Shown here piece by piece: positions 7,105 to 46,504 of a stretch of 64,000 nucleotides of DNA. Each line of letters opens with the position of its first letter. Position 1 is the stretch's first letter. The notes beneath the pieces are model-generated. The model was given only the letters and a program-made list of their open reading frames with translations. It had not been told where the DNA came from and did no database searches. Both the position numbers and the translations under genes were made by a program. This DNA is from Pleomorphomonas sp. PLEO (GTDB taxonomy: Bacteria; Pseudomonadota; Alphaproteobacteria; Rhizobiales; Pleomorphomonadaceae). The stretch covers positions 1,375,501 through 1,439,500 of the forward strand of contig NZ_CP166625.1 of assembly GCF_041320595.1 (NCBI RefSeq). Reading direction: 5' to 3'.

Positions 7105-8376
7105 TTGCTTAGGCACATAAATATAATTGGGTTATCCGTGGTTTTTTCGGCCGGTGCATTGATTGGAGCACACGCGGAAACCAAGCCTGTTGGCGCCGAT
7201 ACGTTCAACCTGCTGCACCTAGATTTCGATGCAACTAAACTAACGCGCGAAAACTTCTACGAAATGCTGGCGCCGATCGCCAAGCAGGAGGGCGAGGTCA
7301 ACCTCTACTCCTTCGCCGCCAGCTTCCCCGCCTTCTGGAACGAGGCCGTCATTCCGGGCTTTGAGAAGAAATACGGTGTCCACGTCAATTTTTACGACGT
7401 GAAGGAAGACGTTGCCAAGCAGCAGCTGATCGCCGTTCACGAGGCCGGTCAGGATTCCCCGGCCGACGCCTATTTCGCCCCCGGCCCGACGCCGGCCGAG
7501 ACGCGCAGCACGCCGATCATCGCCAATCTGCCCTTGGCCGACATCCTGCCGGAAGCCACCAAATACGACAGCTATCTGCTGCACAACTCTTTTGGCTTTG
7601 CCCACGGCGGCACGTTCATGCCGTTGCACCGCGACCAGACTGGCCTCGGCTACAATAGCGCTCTCGTCAAGGCCGAAGACGTTCCCACCGACTTCCCCTC
7701 GCTGCTCGCCTATGCCAAGGCCAATCCGAAAAAGGTCGCCGTCACTTCGCCGCTCAAGGGCGGTTCGGGTGAAAACTTCCTCTATAGCCTGGCCCAGACC
7801 ATGCTGACCGGCGATTGCCACGACAAGCTGTCCAGCGATTTCGGTTGGGACGATGACGCGGCCCACGAGTGGGTGGCCAAGAGCGGCTGCTTCAAGCCGG
7901 TGTGGGATTATCTGATCGAACTGACGCCGCTGGTCGAGGTCACCAACGGCAATGCCGACACGCAGAACCTGATCGGCAACAACGCCGCGACGATCGGTAC
8001 GGTCTGGGAAGACTACGCCTATACCTTCGTGCAGGACAAGCAACTGCCGGAAAGCTACCGCATCACGCTGCTGGCCAACGGCCAGAATGGCGGTGGCGAC
8101 GGCATCTTCGTGCCGCGTAACGCCAAGCATGTGGCCGCCGCCTTGCTGCTGATCGACTACGCCATGGGGTATGACCCGCAGCTGTGGAAGATGAAGCACA
8201 TGGCGTCGCGCACGGCCCGCACCGACATCGCCATCACCGACGCGATCGACGCCCACAATGCCCAGTTCCTGGTGCCGGAACCGACCTATCGCAAATACGC
8301 GATCGGCTATCCGACCGTTCCGGTCATGACGGCGATCCGCGACGGTTATGTCGAGCAGGTCCTGTCGAAGTTCTGA
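7105..8376 (+). CDS. ABC transporter substrate-binding protein (iron/polyamine/thiamine-like class)
   Basis: A 423-residue periplasmic binding protein with a signal peptide: hydrophobic residues about 6-20 and a likely cleavage after AHA near residue 24. The start codon is TTG, preceded by AAGGGAGAG at good distance; no ATG fits. The body resembles extracellular solute-binding proteins of the family that includes YnjB and Fe3+/putrescine receptors, with segments such as GEVNLYSFAASFPAFW and TIGTVWEDYAYTF. It is the first gene of a receptor-ATPase-permease-permease operon. The two separate permeases differ from the single fused permease YnjC, so this is not a plain ynjBCD operon. The substrate is unknown. 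Confidence 0.85.
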   Translation: MLRHINIIGLSVVFSAGALIGAHAETKPVGADTFNLLHLDFDATKLTRENFYEMLAPIAKQEGEVNLYSFAASFPAFWNEAVIPGFEKKYGVHVNFYDVKEDVAKQQLIAVHEAGQDSPADAYFAPGPTPAETRSTPIIANLPLADILPEATKYDSYLLHNSFGFAHGGTFMPLHRDQTGLGYNSALVKAEDVPTDFPSLLAYAKANPKKVAVTSPLKGGSGENFLYSLAQTMLTGDCHDKLSSDFGWDDDAAHEWVAKSGCFKPVWDYLIELTPLVEVTNGNADTQNLIGNNAATIGTVWEDYAYTFVQDKQLPESYRITLLANGQNGGGDGIFVPRNAKHVAAALLLIDYAMGYDPQLWKMKHMASRTARTDIAITDAIDAHNAQFLVPEPTYRKYAIGYPTVPVMTAIRDGYVEQVLSKF

Positions 8377-8401
8377 GCATCGCACATAGGGAAAGGTGGG
8401 C

Positions 8402-9433
8402 ATGATGGCGCATCTTGAAGTCCACGGGCTAAGCAAGTCGTTCGGCAAGACCGTCGCGCTTCATCCCACCGATCTCCTCGTCGAGCAGGGGGAGTTCATC
8501 ACCCTGCTCGGCCCCTCGGGCTGCGGCAAGTCGACCTTTTTGCGCATGCTGATGGGCATCACTCTGCCGACACAAGGCGAAATCCGCCTGTCGGGCCGGC
8601 GTATCGACCGCGATCCGCCGGAGCGGCGCGACATTTCCATGGTGTTCCAATCCTACGCGCTGTTTCCGCACCTCACCGTGCTCGGCAATCTCAAGTTCGG
8701 ACTGCGCATGAAGCGCATTGCCCGGCACGAGCAGCAGCAGCGCATCGACCACGCTGTCCGCATCTGCAATCTCGGCGCCTATCTCAACCGCAGCCCGAAA
8801 GAGCTGTCGGGAGGCCAGCAGCAGCGCGTTGCGCTGGCTCGCGCCATCGTCATGCAGCCGGAACTGCTGCTGTTCGACGAACCCCTCTCCAATCTGGATG
8901 CCAAATTGCGGGAGACATTGCGCGAGGAGTTGCTCGATCTGCACCAGCGTATCGGCACCACCAGCCTCTACGTCACCCATGACCAGGACGAGGCGATGGC
9001 CATGTCCGATCGGATCGTCGTCGTCAACGATGGCCGGGTCGTCGAGATCGGAACGCCAACCGAGCTATATCTCTCCCCCAAGACCTTGTTCACCGCCCGC
9101 TTTCTCGGCAACACCTCGATCGTCAGGGCGCAGTCGTCGGGCCATGAGGTTCGCTTGCCATGGGGCCAGGTCATCAGGAGCGACCGCTCGGTCGAAGGCG
9201 ACGTCGACCTGTCGATCCGACCCGAGGATTTTTCCGCCAAGCCGTCCGAACAGGGACCGGCAACGGTGGTCGGCGCTCAGTTTCTCGGGGCGTCCATCCG
9301 CTATCGCCTGGCGGTCGGCGATCATCAGGTGATGGCCAGCGTCTCAGGACGCGACAGCGTGCTCGCCGCCGGCACGCGCGTCGAGCTCCTGCCGTTGGCA
9401 CCGCTGCACGTTCTCGAAAACGGTGGTGCCTGA
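8402..9433 (+). CDS. ABC transporter ATP-binding protein (PotA/FbpC type)
   Basis: A 343-residue importer ATPase with all nucleotide-binding motifs: Walker A GPSGCGKST (about residues 37-45), Q-loop VFQSYALFPHLTV, signature LSGGQQQR, Walker B LLLFDEPLSNLD and H-loop YVTHD. After residue 240 comes a TOBE-type regulatory domain, as in PotA, FbpC and UgpC. Starts at 8396 (GTG), 8402 and 8405 (both ATG) are all in frame; the ATG at 8402 has an AGG-rich stretch about 5 bp upstream. The gene lies 25 bp after the binding protein and 2 bp before the first permease, so it energises this importer. Confidence 0.92.
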   Translation: MMAHLEVHGLSKSFGKTVALHPTDLLVEQGEFITLLGPSGCGKSTFLRMLMGITLPTQGEIRLSGRRIDRDPPERRDISMVFQSYALFPHLTVLGNLKFGLRMKRIARHEQQQRIDHAVRICNLGAYLNRSPKELSGGQQQRVALARAIVMQPELLLFDEPLSNLDAKLRETLREELLDLHQRIGTTSLYVTHDQDEAMAMSDRIVVVNDGRVVEIGTPTELYLSPKTLFTARFLGNTSIVRAQSSGHEVRLPWGQVIRSDRSVEGDVDLSIRPEDFSAKPSEQGPATVVGAQFLGASIRYRLAVGDHQVMASVSGRDSVLAAGTRVELLPLAPLHVLENGGA

Positions 9434-31914: not shown

Positions 31915-33957
31915 TTGGCATCCCTGATATCATCGGCAACCGACTGGCTCAGCGCGCACTCGCTCATTGCCTATCTCGCGGTGTTCCTGCTTGCCTTTTC
32001 CGAGTCGATCCCAATGGTCGGCGTCGTCGTGCCGGGAACGGCGGTGATCCTTGCGTTGAGCGCCCTCATTCCGAGCGGTGTTCTGAGGCTGTGGCCTCTG
32101 CTCGTGGCGGCGACGGCGGGTGCGATCGTCGGAGATGGCGTCTCCTTCTGGCTCGGTCACCGTTACCGTGGCGAGATCCTTCGGCGTTGGCCGCTCAGCA
32201 AGTATCCGGACCTCATCAAGCGCAGCGAGGCTTTCTTCGAACGGCACGGGGACAAGAGCGTTTTCATCGCCCGTTTCGCGCCGGGTGTTCGTGCCTTCAT
32301 CCCCATTCTCGCTGGTATGCTCGCGATGCCGGTGCGGCGGTTCTATGCCGTCAACATCGCGTCGGCGCTGGTCTGGGCGGGCTCGCATATCTTGTCGGGC
32401 GTTCTGTTCGGGGCCACGTTCCGCGTTCTCGGCGCGGCGGCAAAGCCGGTGGCTATCCTTCTGGTGGTTCTTCTCGCCGCGGGCTGGGCGGTGTGGAGTC
32501 TGGTGCGCTGGACATTGAAGCGCGCCGTTCCGCTGGTAGATGCCGGCATCACAAAGTTGCGGTGCTGGGCTGAGGTCCGCGACAGCTGGCTCAGCCGCAG
32601 CATCGTCGGTCTGCTCGATCCGGAGCGTTCCGAAGCGCGGGTTCTCGCCGTGATGCTGGCCCTCCTCGTCGGCGCGGCCTGGGTGTTCCTCGGCATCCTT
32701 GAGGACGTCGTCAATGGCGAACCGCTGGTTCTCGCCGATGGCGCCATCTACAATGCCCTGCAGGAAATTCGTTCGCCAGCCGGCGATGCTGTCATGATCG
32801 GCATCACCGAGCTTGGCGACCCAAAAGTCGTGGTGGCTGTCACGGCCGTCGTGTTCCTATGGCTCGCCTGGAAGCGTGCGTGGCACACGGCCGCTTTCTG
32901 GCTGATCGCCGTCGCCGGAGCGTCGGCCCTCAACACGGCGATCAAGGTCACTCTTCACAGGGCAAGGCCTGACGAACTGCTTTATTCGGGCTGGAGCGCG
33001 TTTTCCTTTCCGAGCGGCCATAGCACGACAAATATGGTGCTCTATGGGTTCCTCGCGGTCCTCGTTGCCCGTGAGCTTCGGCCGGCACCAAGGCTTTCGG
33101 TTGCTCTCGGTGCGCTGAGCCTGATCTTCCTCATCGCCGTTTCGCGCCTCTATCTCGGCGCGCATTGGTTTTCCGACGTGGTTGGCGGGGCGGCATTCGG
33201 CTCCGCGTGGTTGATACTGCTCAGCCTGCTCTATCTACGCAGGCCGGCTGAACGCATAGGCTCGCCCGCCTTGCTGGTCGCCGCGTGCGCCGCGCTGCTT
33301 CTGGCGGGGAGCGCCAACATTTTTCAAAACCATGCGGGCGATGTCCAACGCTATGCCGTTCGACATACGACGCAGACCGTAACCGTTGCCGATTGGCAGA
33401 CGACAGGTTGGCAGACGCTTCCGGCGTGGCGGTTCGATCTTACCGGTGAGGTGGAGGAGCCGCTGACGTTCCAATGGGCCGGTAGCCTTCAGAATTTGCA
33501 GGAGGTTCTGCAAAAAGATGGATGGAGGCAACCCGTGGGTTGGTCTGTGACGACCACGGTGGCGTGGCTGAGCCCGACCACAGACGCCGCGTTCATCCCG
33601 GTGGTCCCTCTCTTTGCCAGCGGCCGCCTTCCCGATCTCACCCTCATCCAGTCTTCGGTTGCGCCTGCTTCCTCTGCTTCCCGCCTAGTTCTTCGTCTCT
33701 GGGCAACGGACATGGAGCTGGCGGGCGTAGAACCGAAGCCGCTTTGGACAGGGTCGGTCATGGAGGAGCGCATCCATCACCCCCTCTCCCTGATCACCGT
33801 GGTCTCGACCGGATCGGACTTCAACGCGCCGAGGCAGACGCTGGCACGATCCTTTGACGGTGGCACTCTGATGGTGCGGGCCGGCGCGCCAACGAACGCG
33901 GAGTGGGACGGGCGCGTTCTGCTGGCCCGTCAGGAAGTCGGCGCGACGAAGCCGTAG
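31915..33957 (+). CDS. DedA-PAP2-LssY_C fusion protein (undecaprenyl/lipid phosphatase and flippase-like)
   Basis: A 680-residue membrane protein with three parts. Residues about 1-200 are DedA/SNARE-associated: VFLLAFSESIPMVGVVVPGT and RFAPGVRAFIPILAGMLAM with the conserved Arg/Pro-Gly-x-Arg. Residues about 225-430 are PAP2, with Lys344-x6-Arg-Pro, PSGH at 366-369 and SRLYLGAHWFSDV, the complete phosphatase triad of motifs. Residues about 450-680 match the LssY C-terminal domain, probably exported. Such proteins handle undecaprenyl phosphate or phospholipids; LssY was found next to a type I secretion system in Legionella. The start is TTG at 31915 with AGGAT upstream. The 3' end overlaps the kinase gene by 28 bp. 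Confidence 0.85.
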   Translation: MASLISSATDWLSAHSLIAYLAVFLLAFSESIPMVGVVVPGTAVILALSALIPSGVLRLWPLLVAATAGAIVGDGVSFWLGHRYRGEILRRWPLSKYPDLIKRSEAFFERHGDKSVFIARFAPGVRAFIPILAGMLAMPVRRFYAVNIASALVWAGSHILSGVLFGATFRVLGAAAKPVAILLVVLLAAGWAVWSLVRWTLKRAVPLVDAGITKLRCWAEVRDSWLSRSIVGLLDPERSEARVLAVMLALLVGAAWVFLGILEDVVNGEPLVLADGAIYNALQEIRSPAGDAVMIGITELGDPKVVVAVTAVVFLWLAWKRAWHTAAFWLIAVAGASALNTAIKVTLHRARPDELLYSGWSAFSFPSGHSTTNMVLYGFLAVLVARELRPAPRLSVALGALSLIFLIAVSRLYLGAHWFSDVVGGAAFGSAWLILLSLLYLRRPAERIGSPALLVAACAALLLAGSANIFQNHAGDVQRYAVRHTTQTVTVADWQTTGWQTLPAWRFDLTGEVEEPLTFQWAGSLQNLQEVLQKDGWRQPVGWSVTTTVAWLSPTTDAAFIPVVPLFASGRLPDLTLIQSSVAPASSASRLVLRLWATDMELAGVEPKPLWTGSVMEERIHHPLSLITVVSTGSDFNAPRQTLARSFDGGTLMVRAGAPTNAEWDGRVLLARQEVGATKP

Positions 33958-35429
33958 AGACGACCGGCGACGTCGCGATAACGCGCGGCCTTCTCCCGGT
34001 AAGCTGCCACCTGCTGCGCTCGCGGCGTGAAGGCCTTGCCCTCGCGGACGAAAGCAGCCGCCGCTTCGGCATAGGAGCCGAAGACGCCGATGCCGACGCC
34101 CGCGCCCATGGCGGCTCCGGCACAGCTCGCCTCGCCTGTTACGGCGACCACCTCGCGGTTGAAGATATCGGCCTTCATTTGCAGCCAGCGCTCGGACCGG
34201 GCGCCGCCGCCGACGGCGTGGATGCGGCCGATGTCGATGCCGATCGAGGCTTGCAGTTCTAGGTTCCAGCCCATCTCCAGCGTGATGCCCTCGATGGCCG
34301 ACTTGGCGAAATCTTCGTAGGTGGTGTTGGCGTCGATGCCGACCACCGCGCCGCGTGCCCGGGCATCGAGCCAGGGCGTGCCGGTGCCGACGAGATGGGG
34401 AAACATCAGGAGATCGGTCGGCTCTTCCGGCAGGTCGGCGAGGATCAGCTCATAGGGGTCGACACCCTTGAGCGTCGCCAGCTCCAGCAAATGGCGGCTC
34501 GCCACGTCGCGGAACCATTTCAGCGCCACGCCGCCAGCAATGTAGGAGAGGGTGAGTTTCAGCGGCGCCACGGTGTGGCGCTCGGTTGGGAAATTGCAGC
34601 CGAGTGCCGCAGCCGTCAGCACGGCTTCACGAACCGGAATGGAGACGCATTCGAAGGTGCCGGTGCCGTCGACGGCGATGCCCTCGGCCACGCCGCCGGC
34701 GCCCAGCGAGCAGCATCCCTGGTCATGCCCCCCGGTCACCCACTGTACATCATACGGCAGGCCGAGCTCATCAGCGGCGGCTGGCGCGGCGCGACCGACC
34801 GGCGTGCCGGAACCGACAGGCGTTGCCAGTTGCGTCGGCGCGATGCCGGCGAAGGCGAGATACTCCTCGATCCAGGCGCAGCTTTCGACATCGAGGGCCA
34901 TGGTGCGCGAGGCGAGCGAGGTGCTGATCCACGCGCCGACGCCGAGCCGGTTCAGGATATAGTCCTCGACGCAGAGGAAGCGATCGGCGGCGGCGAACAC
35001 CTCAGGACGGTTGGCCCTGAGCCAGGCGATCTTCGGCAACGTGTACATCGAGTGGATGGGAAGTCCGGTCCGCTGGAAAATCTCCGCCTTGCCGAAGTGC
35101 GCGGCGAAGGCGGCGGCCTCATCGACGGCTATTGGTGCCGTATTGAGGATGAAGGGGCCGATGGCCCGCCCGTCGCGATCGACCGGTACGAAGCTTTCGC
35201 CGTGGCTGGAGATGGCCGCCGCCCGGATCTCGGCCCTCGGCGCGACATCGCGCAGACGATGGATAACGTCGCCCAGCGCCCGCCACAGGCTGTCGGGGGG
35301 GAAGCCTTCGCCTGATTTGGTCCTGCCATATTCGAGCGAGGCACCAGCGAGTTTTTCGCCGTCAAGCGCATAGAGCGTCGCCTTGAGGGCCGTCGAGCCG
35401 ATATCGATGCCGAGTAACGCCACGATCAT
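33930..35429 (-). CDS. FGGY-family carbohydrate kinase
   Basis: A 499-residue sugar kinase. The N-terminal phosphate-binding strand is ALLGIDIGSTALKATLYALD, the catalytic base is the Asp in VTGGHDQGCCSLGAGG (about residue 234), and the ATP-binding AVGGGARSERWLQMKADIF lies at about 416-434. FGGY kinases phosphorylate ketoses such as xylulose, ribulose or fuculose, or glycerol. It is the last gene of an aldolase-like/isomerase/kinase operon, so its substrate should be the ketose made by the isomerase. The stop overlaps the convergent DedA-PAP2 gene by 28 bp. Confidence 0.92.
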   Translation of the reverse strand: MIVALLGIDIGSTALKATLYALDGEKLAGASLEYGRTKSGEGFPPDSLWRALGDVIHRLRDVAPRAEIRAAAISSHGESFVPVDRDGRAIGPFILNTAPIAVDEAAAFAAHFGKAEIFQRTGLPIHSMYTLPKIAWLRANRPEVFAAADRFLCVEDYILNRLGVGAWISTSLASRTMALDVESCAWIEEYLAFAGIAPTQLATPVGSGTPVGRAAPAAADELGLPYDVQWVTGGHDQGCCSLGAGGVAEGIAVDGTGTFECVSIPVREAVLTAAALGCNFPTERHTVAPLKLTLSYIAGGVALKWFRDVASRHLLELATLKGVDPYELILADLPEEPTDLLMFPHLVGTGTPWLDARARGAVVGIDANTTYEDFAKSAIEGITLEMGWNLELQASIGIDIGRIHAVGGGARSERWLQMKADIFNREVVAVTGEASCAGAAMGAGVGIGVFGSYAEAAAAFVREGKAFTPRAQQVAAYREKAARYRDVAGRLYGFVAPTS

Positions 35430-35498
35430 CCCCGCCTTGATGGAGAACGGAACTAGCGCCGACGTTGCGAAGGCCGGCGCCGAAGGTGCGTCGGTTGG

Positions 35499-36917
35499 TC
35501 AGTCTATCTCGACGACGTCATAGCCGAGGTAGCGGACGAAGGCCTCGTTGATGGCCGTCTTCATATGACCGACGCCGATTGTGGTGTGGTGGCGGAAGCC
35601 GCCCTGGCCCAGACGGATCAGCTTCTTCTGCAGTCCAGGAATGGCACAGACACCGGCGCAGCCGAAGAACTCCTTCTCGATCGGGTCGGCGGTGAACTCG
35701 CCCTCGGTGAGGTAAATGGTCAGCTTGCCGTCCTCGGTCTTGCAGTTGGACAGCGTTGTCGGGAAGGCGGCAATCCGACCTTCGTTGCTGCCCCAGCCGC
35801 AGCCCGGCTGGCTCTTGGCGAACATCTTGTGATCGGTGACCTCGCCCTTCTCGGTCATCAGCGACTGGGCGACCGGGCCGCAGTGGAACAGGATCACCTT
35901 GTCGGGATCGTCGCCATAGTTGTTGTTCCAGTCGAGACAGGCGGCCGGCTTGCCGCTGGCGAGATTCAGGGCCCGCATGGTGACGGCGCTGCAGATGTCG
36001 ATCTCGCAGCTCGACACCACGCCCCGGTCATTGAGTTCGCTGAGCAGCACGCAAGGCGCAATGCCGAGTTCGGCCTGCATCTCGGTCCAGCAGCGGATGG
36101 CGACGGTGTCCAGGTGATACTCGTCGATATAATCGTCGAAGGCGACGCCGACCTTGGCCAGCGTCAGCATCTTGTCAGTCGGCACCTTGCAGCAGTTGGT
36201 GTAGCTGGCCAGCCTGTCGCGCTTTTGGGTGACGCGATTGTCGCTGTCGGCCATGCCGGCGACGCGCCGGAACAGGTCGGAAAGGTCGAAGGTCTCGACG
36301 GTGATGCCGGCCTTCTGCAAGGCGATTTCGTCGAAGCGCACGGTCTTGAAGGCCGTGGTGCGGGCGCCGATGCAGCCGATGGAGAACCGCCGCATGCCCT
36401 TGACCACCCGGCAGATGGCGGCGAAGTCGTCGAGGTTGCGTCGGAAGGCCGCCGTCAGCGGATGCACGACATGCGGTTCCAGCATGGTGAAGGGCAGGCC
36501 ATACTGGTGGAAGACGTCGGCGATCGAGAACTTGCCGCAGTAGGAGTCGCGGCGGTGCTCGAAGTCCATCTTGCCGATCTCGTCGGGATAGGCTTGCAAC
36601 AGGATCGGTACGGCGCAGTCCTGCAACGCGGCGATGGCGCCGTTCTCGTCAGAGAAATTAGGCATCGACAGGATGACGCCGTCATAACGGCCGCGATTGG
36701 CCGCCAGCCATTCGGCATAGGCTCGCCCTTCCTCGCGCGTCTCGACGGCGCCGTAGCGGGTCAGCTCGACCGGCGGGATGAGGTAGCCATAGCCTGCATC
36801 CCCGACGGCTCTTGCGACCTCATCGCGGGCACCGGCGATCAGACTTGCCGGGAAGAAGCCGCGATTGCCGAAATAGAGCGCGAACGTGGTCCGGGGCGGA
36901 CCGCCAGCTTGGGTCAT
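35499..36917 (-). CDS. L-fucose/L-arabinose isomerase family protein
   Basis: The 472-residue protein resembles the COG2407 isomerases, which convert aldoses to ketoses with Mn2+. Likely metal and catalytic residues are the Glu in AIRCWTEMQAELG, the Asp in ACLDWNNNYGDD and the His in VILFHCGP, which follow the Glu-Asp-His order of FucI; this assignment is by eye. The C-terminus has a second His pair in GGFRHHTTIGVGH. The start at 36917 follows GGGAGAGACA. It sits between the aldolase-like gene (60 bp before it) and the kinase gene (70 bp after it). Sugar specificity is not certain, but the arabinose-type AraC regulator nearby favours L-arabinose, L-fucose, D-arabinose or a relative. Confidence 0.85.
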   Translation of the reverse strand: MTQAGGPPRTTFALYFGNRGFFPASLIAGARDEVARAVGDAGYGYLIPPVELTRYGAVETREEGRAYAEWLAANRGRYDGVILSMPNFSDENGAIAALQDCAVPILLQAYPDEIGKMDFEHRRDSYCGKFSIADVFHQYGLPFTMLEPHVVHPLTAAFRRNLDDFAAICRVVKGMRRFSIGCIGARTTAFKTVRFDEIALQKAGITVETFDLSDLFRRVAGMADSDNRVTQKRDRLASYTNCCKVPTDKMLTLAKVGVAFDDYIDEYHLDTVAIRCWTEMQAELGIAPCVLLSELNDRGVVSSCEIDICSAVTMRALNLASGKPAACLDWNNNYGDDPDKVILFHCGPVAQSLMTEKGEVTDHKMFAKSQPGCGWGSNEGRIAAFPTTLSNCKTEDGKLTIYLTEGEFTADPIEKEFFGCAGVCAIPGLQKKLIRLGQGGFRHHTTIGVGHMKTAINEAFVRYLGYDVVEID

Positions 36918-36976
36918 TGTCTCTCTCCCATGGTTTGGTTGCGCGGCCGCCTGCATCGGGCGGCCGTCTGTTGTGG

Positions 36977-37999
36977 TCAGCTGCCGTAAGCGCTGGCGGT
37001 GGTGGTGAGCACGAGGTCGTCGGCCAGCGAGCGGTGGGGCTTGAGGCCGATCTTGCCGATGGCCGCGTGGTAGGATTTCACGGCGTCCTCGGCCTTGAGG
37101 TCGCCGTCGCCGACGCGCTTCAGGTGCTCGATGAAGGTGAGCTGATCCTCGGCGGCAACGATCTTGCGGCCGAACAGGGCAACGCGGGCGCCGTGCTTCT
37201 TGGCATCCTCGATCAGGAAGAACGCGTCATGGGTGGTACCGGCCGATCCGCCGAGCACGCCGACGATGATGCTGGGGTCGTAATGGCAGAGTTCGGCGAC
37301 GGCCCGGCCGCCCATGTAGGGCAGCTTCAGGAACAGTGGTCGTGCCGATTCCGGTACGCCGGCCAACAGGCGGACGATGTGGTCGTTAACGAAGCCGGGG
37401 ATGGCCTCCGGCGCGAGGCCATGCACCTCGGGCGGCACGTTGGGCAGGAAAACCTCGAGGAAGTGGTCGAAACCCTTCTCCTCGGCCTCGATGCGGAAGG
37501 CGTTGTAGCGTTCGAGCGTCAAGAGATCGGCGTCGGGGATGTTGTTGAAGGTCACCGAATAAAGGCCGAGGTTGGCGCCGCGCGTGCGCTCCTTGGGCGA
37601 GGGGTTCAGTTTGCCGGCCTGGATGTGGTCGATGGTCGCCGTGCTGAAGGGCGCCGACGGCGCCGTCACGTATCGGCCGCCCCGCACGACGTGCAGATCG
37701 GTGGTGTCGTTGGCGCGAACGGCCGGAAGAACCGGCGATCCGTCAAAGATCCGCTCTTCGATGGTCAGCTTGGCGGAGGTACTCGCCGACATCAGCATGA
37801 TGTCGACCAGTTCCGCCTCGACGATGTTGCGGATATCCTGGTGAAGGTTGTCGATCGATCGGAGCCCGCCGTCCGCCGTCCGTCCGGCCGAGGCGACGCC
37901 ACGCGCCATATCCGGGTCCTTGGCATCGGCCAGGATGAAGCAATTGGCGGACGGGTTTGCCTTGAGGATTGCCAGCTTTTTGTCGAACGTCTTTTCCAC
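36977..37999 (-). CDS. Aldolase-like TIM-barrel protein of a sugar operon
   Basis: A 340-residue protein I do not recognise with certainty. The order of hydrophobic strands suggests a TIM barrel like class I aldolases of the LacD/YihT type: ANCFILADAKD, VDIMLMSAS, GLYSVTFNN, DHFLEVFLPN, LFLKLPYMGG and SIIVGVLGGSAGTTHDAFF. The Lys in FLKLPYMGG sits where a Schiff-base lysine is expected and the Gly-Gly-Ser-Ala-Gly loop could bind phosphate. The GTG start at 37999 has GGAGAG 5 bp upstream. As first gene of the operon with an isomerase and a kinase, it would supply the cleavage step. An epimerase role cannot be excluded. Confidence 0.6.
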   Translation of the reverse strand: MEKTFDKKLAILKANPSANCFILADAKDPDMARGVASAGRTADGGLRSIDNLHQDIRNIVEAELVDIMLMSASTSAKLTIEERIFDGSPVLPAVRANDTTDLHVVRGGRYVTAPSAPFSTATIDHIQAGKLNPSPKERTRGANLGLYSVTFNNIPDADLLTLERYNAFRIEAEEKGFDHFLEVFLPNVPPEVHGLAPEAIPGFVNDHIVRLLAGVPESARPLFLKLPYMGGRAVAELCHYDPSIIVGVLGGSAGTTHDAFFLIEDAKKHGARVALFGRKIVAAEDQLTFIEHLKRVGDGDLKAEDAVKSYHAAIGKIGLKPHRSLADDLVLTTTASAYGS

Positions 38000-38302
38000 T
38001 CTACTCTCCGCTAGGTCGATCTAGACTTGCCTCGCAGCGTAAAAATGCGGGCGCATAACAAGATTTAAAATCTCATGAAATAGTACCCCGGCCGACAACA
38101 GTCGCATGAAGGCAAAGAAAACACGCCCCTTGCCACGCGGTGGAAAGGCCTTGGTCGTCCATGCATATACATATCTGCTTGCCCGACTCTCCCTTTGTCG
38201 GATCGCAGACTTCGTTCTGTCTGCCCCGATTGGCCGGTTTTCCATAGCCTTTGATTTGGCTATAGTCTGATCCAGTCGCAGACGACAGAGGGCGGATTGG
38301 CT
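38000..38302. promoter_or_regulatory. Divergent control region between the sugar operon and araC-like gene
   Basis: About 300 bp, A+T richer than the genes, hold the promoters of both directions. TCCATA at 38241-38246 matches the second half of the E. coli AraC half-site, and an inverted repeat ATAGCC/GGCTAT (38244-38249 and 38258-38263) overlaps it, 40-60 bp upstream of the araC-like start. The first AraC half-site box (TAGC) is not well matched. Other TCCATG-like and CATATACATATC sequences occur near 38158-38175. Binding is inferred. Confidence 0.4.
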
Positions 38303-39265
38303 ATGAGTATGTCAAATCTTGCTGGGATGGCCGGTTCGACGGATGCCAAGGCCGATCGCCTCATCCATCGCCTTGCATTCATGAACACCTTTTCAGAAGG
38401 GCAGCAGGATCCCGAGGTTGCTCCGTTGTTACCCGGATATACTTTTGGCCAAAGGCTGATGTCGGGCCTGACGCCGGTCGAACGCGACGGGCTCCTGGAT
38501 TTTGCCATCGAGCGGCCGAACGGTCTGGACGGTTGGGCGCTGCTGCTCACCGTGCGTGGCCGTGGCCTGCTGCTCGACCGGCCGGGCGAGGTGGAACTGC
38601 GGGAAGGCGACGTGCTGCTGATCCCGCCAGGGGCGGAACACCGCTATCGCCGGCACGAGGACTCGCCTTCCTGGTGGCATCGCTGGGTGTATTTCCAACC
38701 GCGCCAGACCTGGCTGCCCTGGCTATCCTGGCGGGGCGGCGTGCCCAAGGCGACGCTGTTGCGCGGGCAGGACGATGACTTCCGCCGCGAACTCGACCGG
38801 ATCTTCACCGAGATCGACGCCTGGTCGATCAACGCCGACGCCTTCGCCCTGGAGATGTCGTTCAATCTTCTGGAACGCGCCATCCTGATCTGCAGCCGCT
38901 ACAACGAAAAGCCGGTGGCCGATTACGATTCGCGCCTTGCCGGTGTCTGCGCCTACATCGCCGAGAACATCGACAAGGCGCTCACGCTCGAGGCCATCGC
39001 CGGGCACGCGCGCCTCTCGGTGTCTCGCCTGTCGCACCTGTTCCAGGATCGTTACGGCTGCTCCATCATGGCTTGGCGCGATGATCTCCGGATGCAGCTC
39101 GCCTGCCGCATCCTCAAGATGACCGACGCACCGGTGAAGCAGGTGGCGATCCGGGTGGGCTACGCCAATCCGCTGCATTTCTCCAAGATGTTCCGCAAGC
39201 GGATGGGGCTGAGCCCGAGCGGATACCGATCGGAACAGGGTCTGAGCGAGATAGCTGCGGCGTGA
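38303..39265 (+). CDS. AraC-family transcriptional regulator with arabinose-type cupin domain
   Basis: A 320-residue activator closely similar in layout to E. coli AraC. The cupin domain (about 35-140) contains LPGYTFGQRLMSGLTPVERD, then RPNGLDGWALLL, GAEHRYRRH and WHRWVYFQP. Thr, Arg, His/Tyr and His/Trp residues that line the arabinose pocket of AraC (T24, R38, H80, Y82, H93, W95) are all kept at matching places. The DNA-binding domain follows with two helix-turn-helices, the second ending in KQVAIRVGYANPLHFSKMFR. An in-frame TTG lies at 38297; the ATG at 38303 was chosen. It is divergent from the aldolase-like/isomerase/kinase operon, which it probably controls in response to an arabinose-like sugar. 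Confidence 0.88.
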   Translation: MSMSNLAGMAGSTDAKADRLIHRLAFMNTFSEGQQDPEVAPLLPGYTFGQRLMSGLTPVERDGLLDFAIERPNGLDGWALLLTVRGRGLLLDRPGEVELREGDVLLIPPGAEHRYRRHEDSPSWWHRWVYFQPRQTWLPWLSWRGGVPKATLLRGQDDDFRRELDRIFTEIDAWSINADAFALEMSFNLLERAILICSRYNEKPVADYDSRLAGVCAYIAENIDKALTLEAIAGHARLSVSRLSHLFQDRYGCSIMAWRDDLRMQLACRILKMTDAPVKQVAIRVGYANPLHFSKMFRKRMGLSPSGYRSEQGLSEIAAA

Positions 39266-41443: not shown

Positions 41444-43498
41444 TTACGGGCGCGTTCCGGCGGGGAAGACACTGAGGACAGCCGCGCCCTGTCGCAGGAA
41501 AAGCGGCAACTCGGTCAAAGGTGCCGCGCAGGAGATGGTTTGCCCCCCGGCGAGGACGCGTCCTGTCCAGGCATCCACCCAGTCGGTGCCGGCCGGCAAA
41601 TAGACGCTGCGTTCTCGCTCACCGGCCTGCAAGACGGGGGCGACGAGGATGTCGCCACCGAACATGTACTGGTCGTCGATCTCCCAGCAGCGAGCATCCC
41701 CGGGGAAGGCGTAGAACAGCGTGCGCATCAGCGGGTCGCCCTGTTCGTGCGCCATCCGCATCAGGTCGCGAACATAGGGGCGAAGCCGTTCGCGGAGGTC
41801 GGTATAGCCTCGCAGGATGGCGTAGACGTCGTCGCCGAAACTCCAGAGTTCGTTGCCGGCGCCGGTGTCGCACTGGGCGACGCCATCGCGGAACGGCACG
41901 GCCGGCGGCGTGGTCGGCTCGCGGTAGCCATGCATGCGCAGCACCGGCGAGAACACCGCCCACTGGAACCAGCGCACCATCAGTTCATGGAAGGCGGGGT
42001 CATTGACGTTGCCGCCATGGAAGCCGCCGATGTCGGTCGTCCACCAGGGAATGCCGGCCATTCCCATGTTGAGCCCGGCGCTCAGTTGGTTGCGCATCGA
42101 GGCGAAGGAACTCTGGATGTCGCCCGACCAGATCAGTGCGCCGTAGCGCTGGCTGCCGGCCCAAGCGCATCTGACGAGGCTGACGATCTCCGTCTCACCC
42201 GCCGCTTTCATGCCCTCATAGATGGCTTGGGCGTAATGGGCCGGATAGGCGTTGCCGACCTCCAGGAGGTTGCCGGTGTGGTAGCGGTAGTTCTCGAAAT
42301 CGTAGACGGCATATTCCGGCTCCGCCTCGTCCAGCCAGAACACCCGGACGCCCTTGTCGTAGTAGTTCTTGCGGGCGACGCTCCACAGGAACTCGCGGGC
42401 GGCCGGATTGGTCGGGTCGATGAACCGGCTGTTGCCGAGAAAGTCGAACTGGACGGGAATGCCGCGGTTTGTGTTTACGAGATAGCCCTTTTCGGCCATC
42501 TCGGCGTAGTTCTCCGATCGGGAGTCGACGGTCGGCCAGATGGAGACCATCAGCTCGGTACCCATCGCCTTGAGCTCGGCCACCATGGCGGCGGGGTCCG
42601 GCCATTCGCGCTCGTCGAAGCGCCAGTCGCCCTGCACCGGCCAGTGGAAGAAGTCGGCGACGATCACCGACAGGGGGATGCCGCGCGCCGCGTAGTCGCG
42701 CGCCACCGACAGGAGTTCCTCCTGCGTGCGGTAACGCAGCTTGCTCTGCCAGAGGCCCAGCGCGAAGTCCGGCATCATTGGAGCGGTGCCGGTTGCTCTC
42801 GCGTAGTTGCGCAGGATGTCGGCGGGCGTATCGCCGGCGGTCACCCAGTAGTCGATGCCTTGCGCGGCTTCCGAGATCCAGCGCGTACCGTTCCTGGCAA
42901 AGGAGGCTTCGCCGACGGCCGGCGTGTTCCACAGAAAGCCGTAGCCATGACTGGAGACGACGAAGGGCACGCTGGCCTGCGAGTTGCGCTGGGCGAGTTC
43001 CAGCGTGCAGCCGGCAAGATCGAGATTGGGCTGCTGGTATTGGCCCATGCCGAACAGCCGCTCGCCGGCGATCGGTTCGAAGCGGACGGTGATGCGCGAG
43101 GCGTCGCCATGTAGCGGCTTGAACTCGCGCCCGGACAGACAGAGCGCACTGATGGTCTCGGCCGCTTGGTCGCCGATGGTCCAGAACTTGGTCAGCGTGT
43201 CGCGCTGGCGCCACTTTTCTTCGAGCAGCACGGTGCCCGCCCGGTTGAGGAACTTGACCCGCCCTTGCAAATCCACCTCTGCGGCGATGGCGCCATTCTC
43301 GATCCGCATGCCATTGCTAAGTCGGCTAATAACCGGTGTATGGTCCCGCGAGGCAAGGAGCGCGCCCTCGGCTGTTTCGCGCATCGGGTAGATCGATGAT
43401 CTGAGGCGCAAGCCATCCTTGCCATGGGCTTCGATCCTCAGCCACGCGCCATTGTAGGACCAGCACAGCGCATCGCGCTCAATCGACAGAGTTTCCAA
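41444..43498 (-). CDS. Glycoside hydrolase family 31 (alpha-xylosidase/alpha-glucosidase)
   Basis: A GH31 retaining alpha-glycosidase of about 684 residues. The nucleophile is the Asp in VFWLDEAEPEY (about residue 389), a form typical of alpha-xylosidases, and the acid/base is the Asp in IWSGDIQSSFASMRNQ (about 458). The N-terminal beta-sandwich and the C-terminal DILVAPVLQAGERERSVYLP are present. The motifs differ from those of the sulfoquinovosidase YihQ. A TTG at 43498 with AAGGAAG upstream is the favoured start; a TTG at 43552 is possible. No signal peptide, so it acts in the cytoplasm on oligosaccharides brought in by the ABC importer encoded just upstream. Confidence 0.9.
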   Translation of the reverse strand: METLSIERDALCWSYNGAWLRIEAHGKDGLRLRSSIYPMRETAEGALLASRDHTPVISRLSNGMRIENGAIAAEVDLQGRVKFLNRAGTVLLEEKWRQRDTLTKFWTIGDQAAETISALCLSGREFKPLHGDASRITVRFEPIAGERLFGMGQYQQPNLDLAGCTLELAQRNSQASVPFVVSSHGYGFLWNTPAVGEASFARNGTRWISEAAQGIDYWVTAGDTPADILRNYARATGTAPMMPDFALGLWQSKLRYRTQEELLSVARDYAARGIPLSVIVADFFHWPVQGDWRFDEREWPDPAAMVAELKAMGTELMVSIWPTVDSRSENYAEMAEKGYLVNTNRGIPVQFDFLGNSRFIDPTNPAAREFLWSVARKNYYDKGVRVFWLDEAEPEYAVYDFENYRYHTGNLLEVGNAYPAHYAQAIYEGMKAAGETEIVSLVRCAWAGSQRYGALIWSGDIQSSFASMRNQLSAGLNMGMAGIPWWTTDIGGFHGGNVNDPAFHELMVRWFQWAVFSPVLRMHGYREPTTPPAVPFRDGVAQCDTGAGNELWSFGDDVYAILRGYTDLRERLRPYVRDLMRMAHEQGDPLMRTLFYAFPGDARCWEIDDQYMFGGDILVAPVLQAGERERSVYLPAGTDWVDAWTGRVLAGGQTISCAAPLTELPLFLRQGAAVLSVFPAGTRP

Positions 43499-43566
43499 CG
43501 TAGGCTTCCTTTTTGTCGAGACGGTCGGACCGCCCCGGTCATTCAAGTCCAAGGGCGTGTGCGTCC

Positions 43567-44646
43567 CTAAAGCGCGCGGCCCGTTTCCGGGTCGAACAGG
43601 TAGATGTCGTCGCCGGCGATGCCGAGTGTCAGCGGTGCGCCGGCCTCGGTCTCGTAGGTGCCGGCATGGGCGATGCTGAGCAGAGCACCGCCGACTGTCG
43701 CCTCGATGAAGGTCATCGAGCCCGTTCCCTCGACGGTCTCCACCGTCGCGGCGAGCTGCTCGCCGCTGCCATCGAGCCGGAGATGCTCGGGCCTGAGGCC
43801 AGCCAGCACTTTTCGCCCGGTTTCTTGAGCCCGCTCGATTTTGAGGAGCACGCCCGCGCCGATGGCGATCGCCCTGCCATCGGCGGTCACCTCGGCCGGC
43901 ACGAAGTTCATGGCCGGCGAGCCGATGAAGCCGGCAACGAAACGGTTGGCCGGATGGCGGTAGAGGTCGAGCGGCTTGCCGATCTGCTCGATGCGGCCGT
44001 CGTGCAGCACGACGATCAGGTCGGCCATGGTCATCGCTTCGATCTGGTCGTGGGTGACGTAGACCGATGTCGCGCTGAGGTTCTTATGCAGCTTGCGGAT
44101 CTCGCTGCGCATCTGAACGCGCAGGGCGGCGTCGAGATTGGACAGCGGTTCGTCGAACAGGAAGACCTTGGGATTGCGGACGATCGCCCGCCCCATGGCG
44201 ACGCGCTGGCGCTGTCCGCCGGAGAGTTGTTTTGGCCGCCGCGTCAGGAGCTTTTCCAGCCCAAGAATCTTCGCCGCCTCGCCGACGCGCTGGTCGATCT
44301 CCGCCTTGGGCCGTCGGCGCAGGCGCAGCGAATAGGACATGTTCTGCTCCACCGTCATATGCGGATAGAGCGCGTAGGACTGGAAGACCATGGCGAGATC
44401 GCGTTCGCGCGGCGCCTTGTCGTTGACCACTTCGCCCGCCACCTTGATGGTTCCCGACGTGATGGTCTCGAGGCCCGCGATGGTGCGCAGCAGCGTCGAC
44501 TTGCCGCAACCCGACGGCCCGACCAGGGCGACGAAGGCGCCGATGGGGATGTCGAGGCTGATGTCGTGCAACACCTGCAGCGAGCCGTAGTTCTTGTTGA
44601 GATGTTGGATTTCGATTTGGTTCATCGACGGGTGATCCACGTTCAT
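43567..44646 (-). CDS. Sugar ABC transporter ATP-binding protein (MalK/UgpC type)
   Basis: A 359-residue importer ATPase: Walker A GPSGCGKST (about residues 42-50), VFQSYALYPHMTV, signature LSGGQRQR, Walker B FLFDEPLSNLD and YVTHD. The C-terminal 120 residues form the OB-type regulatory domain with LAGLRPEHLRL, typical of MalK, UgpC and MsmK. The ATG at 44646 overlaps the stop of the preceding permease gene (ATGA); a second ATG seven codons later is also possible. It energises the importer of the operon and the GH31 gene follows it closely. Confidence 0.94.
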   Translation of the reverse strand: MNVDHPSMNQIEIQHLNKNYGSLQVLHDISLDIPIGAFVALVGPSGCGKSTLLRTIAGLETITSGTIKVAGEVVNDKAPRERDLAMVFQSYALYPHMTVEQNMSYSLRLRRRPKAEIDQRVGEAAKILGLEKLLTRRPKQLSGGQRQRVAMGRAIVRNPKVFLFDEPLSNLDAALRVQMRSEIRKLHKNLSATSVYVTHDQIEAMTMADLIVVLHDGRIEQIGKPLDLYRHPANRFVAGFIGSPAMNFVPAEVTADGRAIAIGAGVLLKIERAQETGRKVLAGLRPEHLRLDGSGEQLAATVETVEGTGSMTFIEATVGGALLSIAHAGTYETEAGAPLTLGIAGDDIYLFDPETGRAL

Positions 44647-45455
44647 TTCAGCGCGCCGGAGGTGAGGCCGGTGACGATCTGCCGCTGCAAGAGGATGAAG
44701 ACGATCAGGATGGGCGCGACATAGATGCCGGCGTAGTTCATCAGGCCCACCCAGTCGGCCGAATTGGCGCTGAGATAGGTGGCGAGATTGACGGTGGCGG
44801 TCTGTAGTTCGCGCGTTGCGATGAACGAACGCGAGTAGACGTATTCGCCGAAGGACTGCAGGAACACCAGCACCGAGGTGATCAGGATGCCGTTGCGGGC
44901 AAGCGGCAGGATGATCAGGAAGAAGGCGCCGAGGTGGGAGTTGCCGTCGACCAGCGCCGCGTCCTTCAATTCGCGCGGCACCTGGGTGAAGGTGGCGCGG
45001 CAGAGGACGATGTAGAAGGCCAGCGTCTTGGCGGCGGTGGCCAGCACCACGGCCGTGCGGGGGTAATCGAGCAGGCCGACGTGGTTGAAGGCGACGAACA
45101 GCGGCGTCACCATCAGCGACGGCGGCAGCACCTGCAGCACGATGACCAGGAACAGCGCTACGTTGGCCTTGGCGCCACGGGCGTTGGCCAGCGCATAGGC
45201 AGCTCCCGTGCCGAGCAGCATGGTGATGGCGGTAATGCCGGTGGCGACCAGCAGCGAGTTCCACAGATAACGGCCGATGTCGTGCTCGGCAAACACGCGC
45301 GATACCTGGAACAGCGGCTGGGAGGGCCAGAGTTCCGGCGGATATTTGAAGATGGAGCCGGAGGTCTTCAGCGCGGTCGCATACATCCAGTAGACGGGAA
45401 AGAGATAGATGGCGGCGAACAGGATGGCGAGTGCCAGGAGGACATATCTTTTCAT
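44643..45455 (-). CDS. Sugar ABC transporter permease (MalG type)
   Basis: The 270-residue protein has six membrane segments; the first, YVLLALAILFAAIYLFPVYW, is near the N-terminus. The EAA loop is ELKDAALVDGNSHLGAFFLI at about residues 178-197. The start at 45455 is preceded by GGGGCGAAG; earlier frames belong to the antisense of the upstream permease gene. It forms the channel together with the MalF-type protein encoded 11 bp upstream. Confidence 0.93.
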   Translation of the reverse strand: MKRYVLLALAILFAAIYLFPVYWMYATALKTSGSIFKYPPELWPSQPLFQVSRVFAEHDIGRYLWNSLLVATGITAITMLLGTGAAYALANARGAKANVALFLVIVLQVLPPSLMVTPLFVAFNHVGLLDYPRTAVVLATAAKTLAFYIVLCRATFTQVPRELKDAALVDGNSHLGAFFLIILPLARNGILITSVLVFLQSFGEYVYSRSFIATRELQTATVNLATYLSANSADWVGLMNYAGIYVAPILIVFILLQRQIVTGLTSGALK

Positions 45456-45466
45456 CTTCGCCCCGC

Positions 45467-46375
45467 TCAGAACGACTGTTCGCGCTGTACGGAGCGCACG
45501 TAGATGACGGCGACGACGATCACCAGGGCGATCATCATGGTCGCCACGGTGGCACCGCCGGAGATCTCGTAGGTCTGGAACGACATCTGCCAGGACCAGT
45601 ATTGCGCCACGTTCGACGAGTTGGCCGGCCCGCCCTGGGTGAGCGCTGCGACGAGGTCGAACTGCTGCAGGGTGAAGATGACGCCGAGCGCCACGACGGC
45701 GCCGAGCGTCGGTCCCATCATCGGCAGGGTGATCGTCAGGAAGCGCTGGAAGACGTTGGCACCGTCCATTTCCGCCGCCTCGTAGACGTCGCCGGGGATG
45801 CCGGCGAGACCGACCGACAGCAGGATCATGTTGAAGGGAATGCCGAGCCAGATGTTGGCGATGATCACCGAGTAGAGCGCGTAGGCGGGGTCCGACAGCC
45901 AGTAGATCTGCCCGTCGATCAGCCCCAGGCTCTGAAGGGCGTAGTTGAGGACTCCGAAGTCGCCGGCAAAGATCCAGCGCCAGACGGCGCCGACCACCAG
46001 GGCGGGCAGGATCCAGCCGGCCAGAAACAGGCCGCGCACGTAGGTGGAGCCCGGAAAATCCTGCAGGAAGAACAAGGCGAGTGCGAAACCGATCGCCAAT
46101 TGGAAGACAATGGACAGCGTCACGAAGATCACGGTGTTCCAGACGATCGGCGCGAACTCCGGCCGCTGGAACAGGTCGGTGTAGTTTTTGAGGCCGGCGA
46201 AGGGGCGGACGAGCGTGCCGAGCGTGAACATGTCGACTTCCTGGAACGACATGAGCACGGTGTAGAGCAGGGGAAAGGCGGCGAAGACCAGAAGGTAGAG
46301 CACGGCGGCGACGATCAGCGTGCCCTCGAAGCCCTTGCCGTCGCGCAGATATCTCGCAAAACCCGATTGAAGCAT
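45467..46375 (-). CDS. Sugar ABC transporter permease (MalF type)
   Basis: A 302-residue permease of the carbohydrate-uptake-1 family, with six membrane helices and the EAA loop DVYEAAEMDGANVFQRFLTI near residue 200. A GGP motif follows in LTQGGPANSSN, as in other MalF/UgpA proteins. The ATG at 46375 lies just before the first helix; the frame extends to 46489 without a ribosome site. The 129-bp gap after the binding-protein gene may hold processing or attenuation signals, a common feature of such operons. Confidence 0.93.
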   Translation of the reverse strand: MLQSGFARYLRDGKGFEGTLIVAAVLYLLVFAAFPLLYTVLMSFQEVDMFTLGTLVRPFAGLKNYTDLFQRPEFAPIVWNTVIFVTLSIVFQLAIGFALALFFLQDFPGSTYVRGLFLAGWILPALVVGAVWRWIFAGDFGVLNYALQSLGLIDGQIYWLSDPAYALYSVIIANIWLGIPFNMILLSVGLAGIPGDVYEAAEMDGANVFQRFLTITLPMMGPTLGAVVALGVIFTLQQFDLVAALTQGGPANSSNVAQYWSWQMSFQTYEISGGATVATMMIALVIVVAVIYVRSVQREQSF

Positions 46376-46504
46376 GATCCCGTCGTCCAATGCGGAAAGT
46401 ATCCGTCCTGATCGTGGCGTCCGGGGCGATCGCCCCGGACGGGCATCGGCGCGTGAACGGCTGCCGGCGAAGAGGCAACCCGGCACCAATGCGTGGCGCT
46501 CAGA

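Follow-up and report, generated by a model that had tools for sequence, protein, structure and literature searches.

In a stretch of 64,000 nucleotides from Pleomorphomonas sp. PLEO (NZ_CP166625.1, positions 1,375,501 to 1,439,500), called the window here and used at its full length for all positions below, an AraC-type regulator gene stands divergently from the genes for an aldolase-like protein, a COG2407-type isomerase and an FGGY kinase. We read these four genes, with a probability of roughly 0.6, as a self-contained catabolic module that combines AraC-type sensing with isomerisation, phosphorylation and cleavage; the leading candidate substrate is L-arabinose or another sugar with its ring configuration. 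Fold, residues and context lend good support to the isomerise-phosphorylate-cleave architecture itself. On this reading, an arabinose-type regulator controls an isomerase and FGGY kinase pair that is completed by one member of a widespread but uncharacterised family of class I aldolases.

In the proposed pathway, the regulator would detect an aldose with an L-arabinose-like ring and turn on the three divergent genes. The isomerase would convert the aldose to a ketose for phosphorylation by the FGGY kinase, with C1 as the simplest position. Cleavage of the ketose phosphate by the class I aldolase would, in the simplest case, give dihydroxyacetone phosphate (DHAP) together with a short aldehyde, which would be glycolaldehyde from a pentose or lactaldehyde from a 6-deoxyhexose. 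The original prediction had claimed a complete route of this kind; its gene architecture holds, together with fold and clustering, and the three reactions with their products, the position of the phosphate (C1) and the identity of the sugar are what we infer. A literature search recognised no description of the module or the aldolase family, with most subscription journals beyond its reach, which makes it weak evidence of absence.

Module layout and conservation

The features of the module are as follows.

36977..37999, minus strand: aldolase-like protein, 340 amino acids (aa); class I (Schiff-base) aldolase fold by model, outside Pfam families; predicted ketose-phosphate cleavage
35499..36956, minus strand: COG2407-type isomerase (L-fucose/L-arabinose family), 485 aa as listed, probably 472 aa
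33930..35429, minus strand: FGGY carbohydrate kinase, 499 aa, belonging to none of the named FGGY equivalog families
38297..39265, plus strand: AraC-type regulator, exceeding the NCBI cut-off for the arabinose operon regulator
38000..38296, no strand: divergent intergenic region, the presumed control region, with short blocks kept across four aligned genomes

All four frames were recovered as predicted, three in the same direction and divergent from the AraC-like activator. The listed frames are separated by 20 bp between aldolase and isomerase and by 69 bp between isomerase and kinase, in a host genome that is a single contig of 5.48 Mb. Pfam agrees with the predicted families, matching Fucose_iso_C of the fucose-isomerase group in the isomerase (46.1 bits), FGGY_N and FGGY_C in the kinase (120.7 and 77.3 bits, both above the cut-off) and HTH_18 with AraC_binding in the regulator.

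The gene order, from the divergent AraC through aldolase and isomerase to FGGY kinase, was found again in three Pleomorphomonas records (L009-L011) with protein identities of 85-94%. Among named relatives, the aldolase is closest to those of P. koreensis, P. carboxyditropha and one Pleomorphomonas metagenome-assembled genome, with identities of 91-92%. AraC, aldolase and isomerase are co-located in 4 of the 14 genus genomes, the host genome counted. The genus-genome loci behind this count are too short to hold the kinase; three of them agree with L009-L011 in their identity figures, and the kinase is visible in those longer records. In one genome (G004:C19:12018-12854; L009 about 7754-8695), the regulator frame carries one in-frame TAG, either genuine or a sequencing error, and the L009 regulator is in two pieces.

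The aldolase-like protein

A Pfam search with the 340-aa protein gave no family at E ≤ 0.1, and the NCBIfam ADH-synthase models gave it only 16.8 bits at a cut-off of 241, short of a curated-model match. Sequence searches of the PDB found nothing significant (best E of 0.07 with the single sequence and 0.33 with the profile), so the fold was placed through AlphaFold and Foldseek. The AlphaFold model from 15 aligned sequences is a barrel with a mean pLDDT of 81.6 and a pTM of 0.84, poor at residues 29-36, 99-120 and 335-340. Its top PDB matches in Foldseek are class I aldolases, namely MJ0400, LacD (tagatose-1,6-bisphosphate aldolase), LsrF and an archaeal FBP aldolase. The best is the M. jannaschii ADH synthase MJ0400, at an E of 8.5e-9 and a TM-score of 0.55 by query length. 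The model search thus returns the aldolase-like TIM barrel that had been predicted from the letters.

The residues D25, K27, E182, K225, G250, G251, G277 and R278 are invariant in all 47 aligned sequences of the family. In the barrel, the lysine K225 is on strand 6, and strands 1 and 5 bear the acidic residues D25 and E182. Motifs like those of the family occur in E. coli YihT, with D-x-R, E159 and K193, and LsrF has K203. These residues of YihT and LsrF are catalytic, and the invariant set of the family is of catalytic type. A profile alignment with LsrF, of 11.5% probability, starts just beyond the lysine and is shifted by one position at that point; motif and strand position are therefore the basis for assigning the lysine. 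The model and the invariant residues place the protein in the DhnA/LacD/LsrF/YihT group of class I aldolase folds, and retro-aldol activity through a Schiff base is predicted.

Genomic context of the aldolase family

The context of aldolase relatives was surveyed at 46 chosen loci with 41 query proteins, several of which were drawn from those loci; the survey was not blind and its absences are lower bounds. The loci are all 14 from one search for relatives, 12 of 47 plasmid records, two host-genome paralogues, six alphaproteobacterial loci and 12 of 13 genomes (the 13th is that of L014), and the close relatives among them are not independent. Open frames were chosen by simple scripts, with some choices on the wrong strand. 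As a control, the same queries were run on 20 stretches of 13 kb, all from the host genome.

At 26 of the 46 loci, the 6 kb around the aldolase relative on either side include a sugar kinase (FGGY, PfkB, ADP-PFK-like or DhaK); these are all 24 proteobacterial loci and 2 of the remaining 22. A sugar isomerase lies within the same distance at nine of the 46. The control stretches gave neither kinases (0/20) nor isomerases (0/20). The predicted clustering with isomerase and kinase is therefore upheld, as the exact module in the four genus genomes and as proximity at these loci.

A D-lyxose-isomerase-family gene and a PfkB kinase accompany the aldolase at two planctomycete loci (L012, L013) and in three alphaproteobacteria whose genomes measure 1.4 Mb (L092-L094). 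This is the identical three-step logic with first and second enzymes unrelated to those of the module. Close to sugar kinases, the family turns up in rhizobia, Agrobacterium, Shinella, Vibrio and alphaproteobacteria with small genomes; it also occurs in planctomycete and verrucomicrobial microcompartment loci. Among the 47 plasmid records holding it, the 40 listed leave it as 'hypothetical protein' or unannotated. The module offers a testable function for this aldolase family outside Pfam, and one settled member would aid the annotation of many sugar clusters.

Other neighbours of the aldolase relatives were seen along the way. At four alphaproteobacterial loci (L037, L038, L051 and L128), genes like ADP-dependent phosphofructokinase/glucokinase adjoin them, that of L051 matching PF04587 with 52.7 bits. 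At L036, L127 and L130 (also L034), they stand with a GlpD-like dehydrogenase, an FGGY kinase and a maltose-type ABC transporter, a content suggestive of polyol-phosphate routes. Most planctomycete and verrucomicrobial relatives (L012-L019, L021, L113-L120, L122) are in longer frames of about 390-510 aa versus 340 aa, with start codons as picked, and the extra length is mostly a C-terminal extension.

Regulator, second arabinose-type locus and sugar

The regulator scores 291.9 bits with the NCBI model of the arabinose AraC, the cut-off being 208, and its best PDB matches are E. coli AraC domains. Relative to E. coli AraC, it retains the pocket residues P8, T24, R38, H80, Y82, H93 and W95, which contact the sugar there, and it carries the changes V20M, M42L and I46A. 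L-fucose and D-arabinose are of the mirror-image series relative to L-arabinose, and with the checked L-arabinose pocket residues retained they are less likely as the sugar. The regulator sequence thus points to a ring like that of L-arabinose rather than to L-fucose or D-arabinose. Among the candidates named originally (L-arabinose, L-fucose, D-arabinose or a related sugar), L-arabinose or a same-ring sugar is now the leading candidate and the mirror-image pair recedes. Positions 8, 24, 80, 82 and 93 are the ones altered in an engineered salicylate-responsive AraC (PMC6350385).

All 14 genus genomes have a second, higher-scoring AraC. Its five distinct copies aligned hold the same pocket residues along with V20, M42 and I46. 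Position 46 is A or T in all three module copies aligned, the window's A included. In the host genome, the second AraC lies in a core locus (L070). The AraA-family isomerase there scores 183.6 bits, short of its cut-off of 622, and the AraD-family epimerase there passes one subfamily cut-off (328.4 bits against 257). The AraA-family isomerase is found in all 14 genomes, two of them with partial copies only. Words common to the module control region and the core arabinose locus reach 12 bases at the longest and were not accepted as a site.

The nearest FGGY genes are about 32 kb from the core locus in the host genome. Ordinary L-arabinose use is probably covered by this locus, judged by its gene families; it may be incomplete and could conceivably share the kinase of the window module. 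Given the core locus, the module would be a second L-arabinose route or serve a same-ring sugar, e.g. D-fucose or D-galactose. If the reading is true, the module is an arabinose-type regulator coupled to a different enzyme set.

Opposing observations and alternative readings

Several observations weigh against the catabolic module as read here. The aldolase-like protein is below the Pfam and NCBIfam ADH-synthase cut-offs, its Foldseek TM-scores are moderate (about 0.5-0.55 by query length), and other barrels match too, lower in the list, e.g. pyruvate carboxylase at an E of 5.4e-7. Around the module, no sugar transporter gene was found inside it, the genus has the other AraC/AraA-family locus, and the kinase tree described below does not decide between C1 and C5 phosphorylation. 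Across the family, 20 of the 46 loci show no kinase within 6 kb. A class II aldolase lies near the aldolase relative at 11 planctomycete or verrucomicrobial loci (L014-L016, L018, L019, L021, L115-L118 and L124). A further nine of the 22 non-proteobacterial loci show neither kinase nor shell genes, L123 among them having a lyxose-isomerase-family gene and L020 beginning at a contig end; these nine count against a universal link of aldolase and kinase.

The 11 loci with a class II aldolase have their own character. EutN shell and aldehyde dehydrogenase genes are present at ten of them (L016 ends at a contig end), a lactate/malate dehydrogenase gene at ten and acetate kinase within 6 kb at seven. 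This gene content is that of the PVM-type microcompartment loci, known for L-fucose and L-rhamnose (PMC4207490, PMC8857213). Alongside the class II aldolase, the second aldolase is a regular member of such loci (L014, L015, L018, L019, L021, L115-L118 and L124).

The alternative that survives best, itself unlikely, concerns the position of the phosphate. The kinase would yield a 5-phosphate, and the aldolase would split it in the manner of fructose-6-phosphate aldolase into dihydroxyacetone and glycolaldehyde phosphate. The top NCBI model of the kinase is indeed xylulokinase at 220.9 bits, under its cut-off of 380.25, and no equivalog cut-off was reached. In a 29-sequence tree (two entries being the same gene), the kinase is a lone branch outside the FucK and RhaB branches, so the tree leaves C1 versus C5 undecided. 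At L035 the aldolase relative immediately precedes DhaK and DhaL genes, as the 5-phosphate would suit. However, the nearest folds of the aldolase mostly use or form DHAP, by their PDB titles, and PfkB genes adjoin the aldolase at many loci in a manner reminiscent of the LacC-LacD and YihV-YihT pairs.

Next in rank, and unlikely too, is a phosphorylative route for D-fucose (6-deoxy-D-galactose). It would pass through D-fuculose and D-fuculose 1-phosphate to DHAP and D-lactaldehyde by the new class I aldolase family. D-fucose mimics L-arabinose, and its binding to E. coli AraC has an anti-inducing effect. The smaller residue 46 of the extra AraC, compared with I in the five core copies, might on this account let D-fucose act as the inducer. 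No phosphorylative D-fucose route was found in a literature search to which most subscription journals were closed.

It is improbable, third in this order, that the third enzyme acts on a downstream intermediate by another carbon-carbon or isomerising reaction rather than as a phosphoketose aldolase. LsrF, among the closest folds, is annotated as a thiolase, and the 11 planctomycete and verrucomicrobial loci hold a class II aldolase already. On the other hand, the invariant D, E and K set resembles that of YihT, a sulfofructose-1-phosphate aldolase, and Pfam recognised no further cleaving or epimerising enzyme in the module.

The isomerase bears on the last alternative. Its translation probably begins 13 codons into the listed frame, at an internal ATG, giving 472 aa, as in its relatives. 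It matches the sulfoquinovose isomerase SftI model weakly (96.5 bits, cut-off 700), and a PDB search gave no match at E ≤ 0.1. Profile alignments with E. coli FucI and AraA had probabilities of 1.4 and 1.2% and are not trustworthy, so the active site was judged only from blocks conserved within the subfamily. Metal-site-like blocks are conserved among the isomerase and its relatives. One conserved stretch reads CGKFSIADVF in the module isomerase versus CGKISVCNN in most relatives, and this departure makes a different substrate plausible. Beyond the genus, 385 alphaproteobacterial genomes, 398 genomes of a further set and the plasmid records yielded no relative above 39% identity.

Two isomerase paralogues in the host genome are 36-38% identical. 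One of them is at L048 (10073-14841; host genome C1 about 208000-212800), where the paralogue, a split transketolase and a GlpK-like FGGY kinase are encoded consecutively. Enterobacterial relatives of about 37% identity are likewise with a split transketolase and an FGGY kinase. We take this arrangement, in both settings, to be the D-apiose transketolase pathway; the literature search brought nothing usable on it. As in the module, these isomerases (36-39% identical) are beside an FGGY kinase, but the module has the aldolase in place of the transketolase, and its kinase is only about 27% identical to that of L048. The least probable of the alternatives is that the module provides a second D-apiose route, or one for some other branched or rare pentose, with an apiose-type isomerase and the aldolase replacing the two-subunit transketolase; on chemical grounds a C3-branched ketose such as apulose should not be retro-aldol-cleavable to DHAP, the regulator is arabinose-type, and the isomerase departs from the CGKxSVxNN-like stretch.

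Relation to known systems

The catabolic module resembles the E. coli L-fucose (FucI-FucK-FucA) and L-rhamnose (RhaA-RhaB-RhaD) systems in having isomerase, FGGY kinase and aldolase in one cluster, and its isomerase shares the Pfam fucose-isomerase group with the FucI pathway. It differs in that its aldolase has a class I fold, whereas theirs is a class II zinc aldolase, in its arabinose-type regulator and in a kinase outside the FucK/RhaB branch. No match to PF00596 (class II aldolase) was found in the three module enzymes, and no AraD in the module, in line with the prediction of a third enzyme other than AraD or FucA.

Like the module, the sulfoglycolytic YihS-YihV-YihT of E. coli and LacC-LacD end in a class I aldolase, and the D-x-K/R, E and K motifs are similar. 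Their aldolases share no sequence family with that of the module above chance, and their kinases are PfkB rather than FGGY. With AraA-AraB-AraD under AraC, the module has in common a regulator that passes the AraC cut-off and retains the pocket residues checked; it lacks AraA and AraD, and such genes are instead at L070. The PVM-type loci carry an aldolase relative 50-56% identical, next to the dehydrogenase gene counted above, whereas the module has no shell genes; the signature enzyme reported for PVM loci is a class II aldolase (PMC4207490).

Neighbouring genes

A GH31 glycosidase gene (41444-43552, minus strand) and adjoining ABC transporter genes (43567-44724 and 45467-46489, both minus) lie further along the window. 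They were rejected as module members: other genes intervene, and no GH31 match was found in L009-L011. The best PDB match of the glycosidase is the alpha-xylosidase MeXyl31 (943 bits), and the GH31 and ABC genes (41444-46489) probably serve, separately from the module, the import and cleavage of a xyloglucan-type oligosaccharide.

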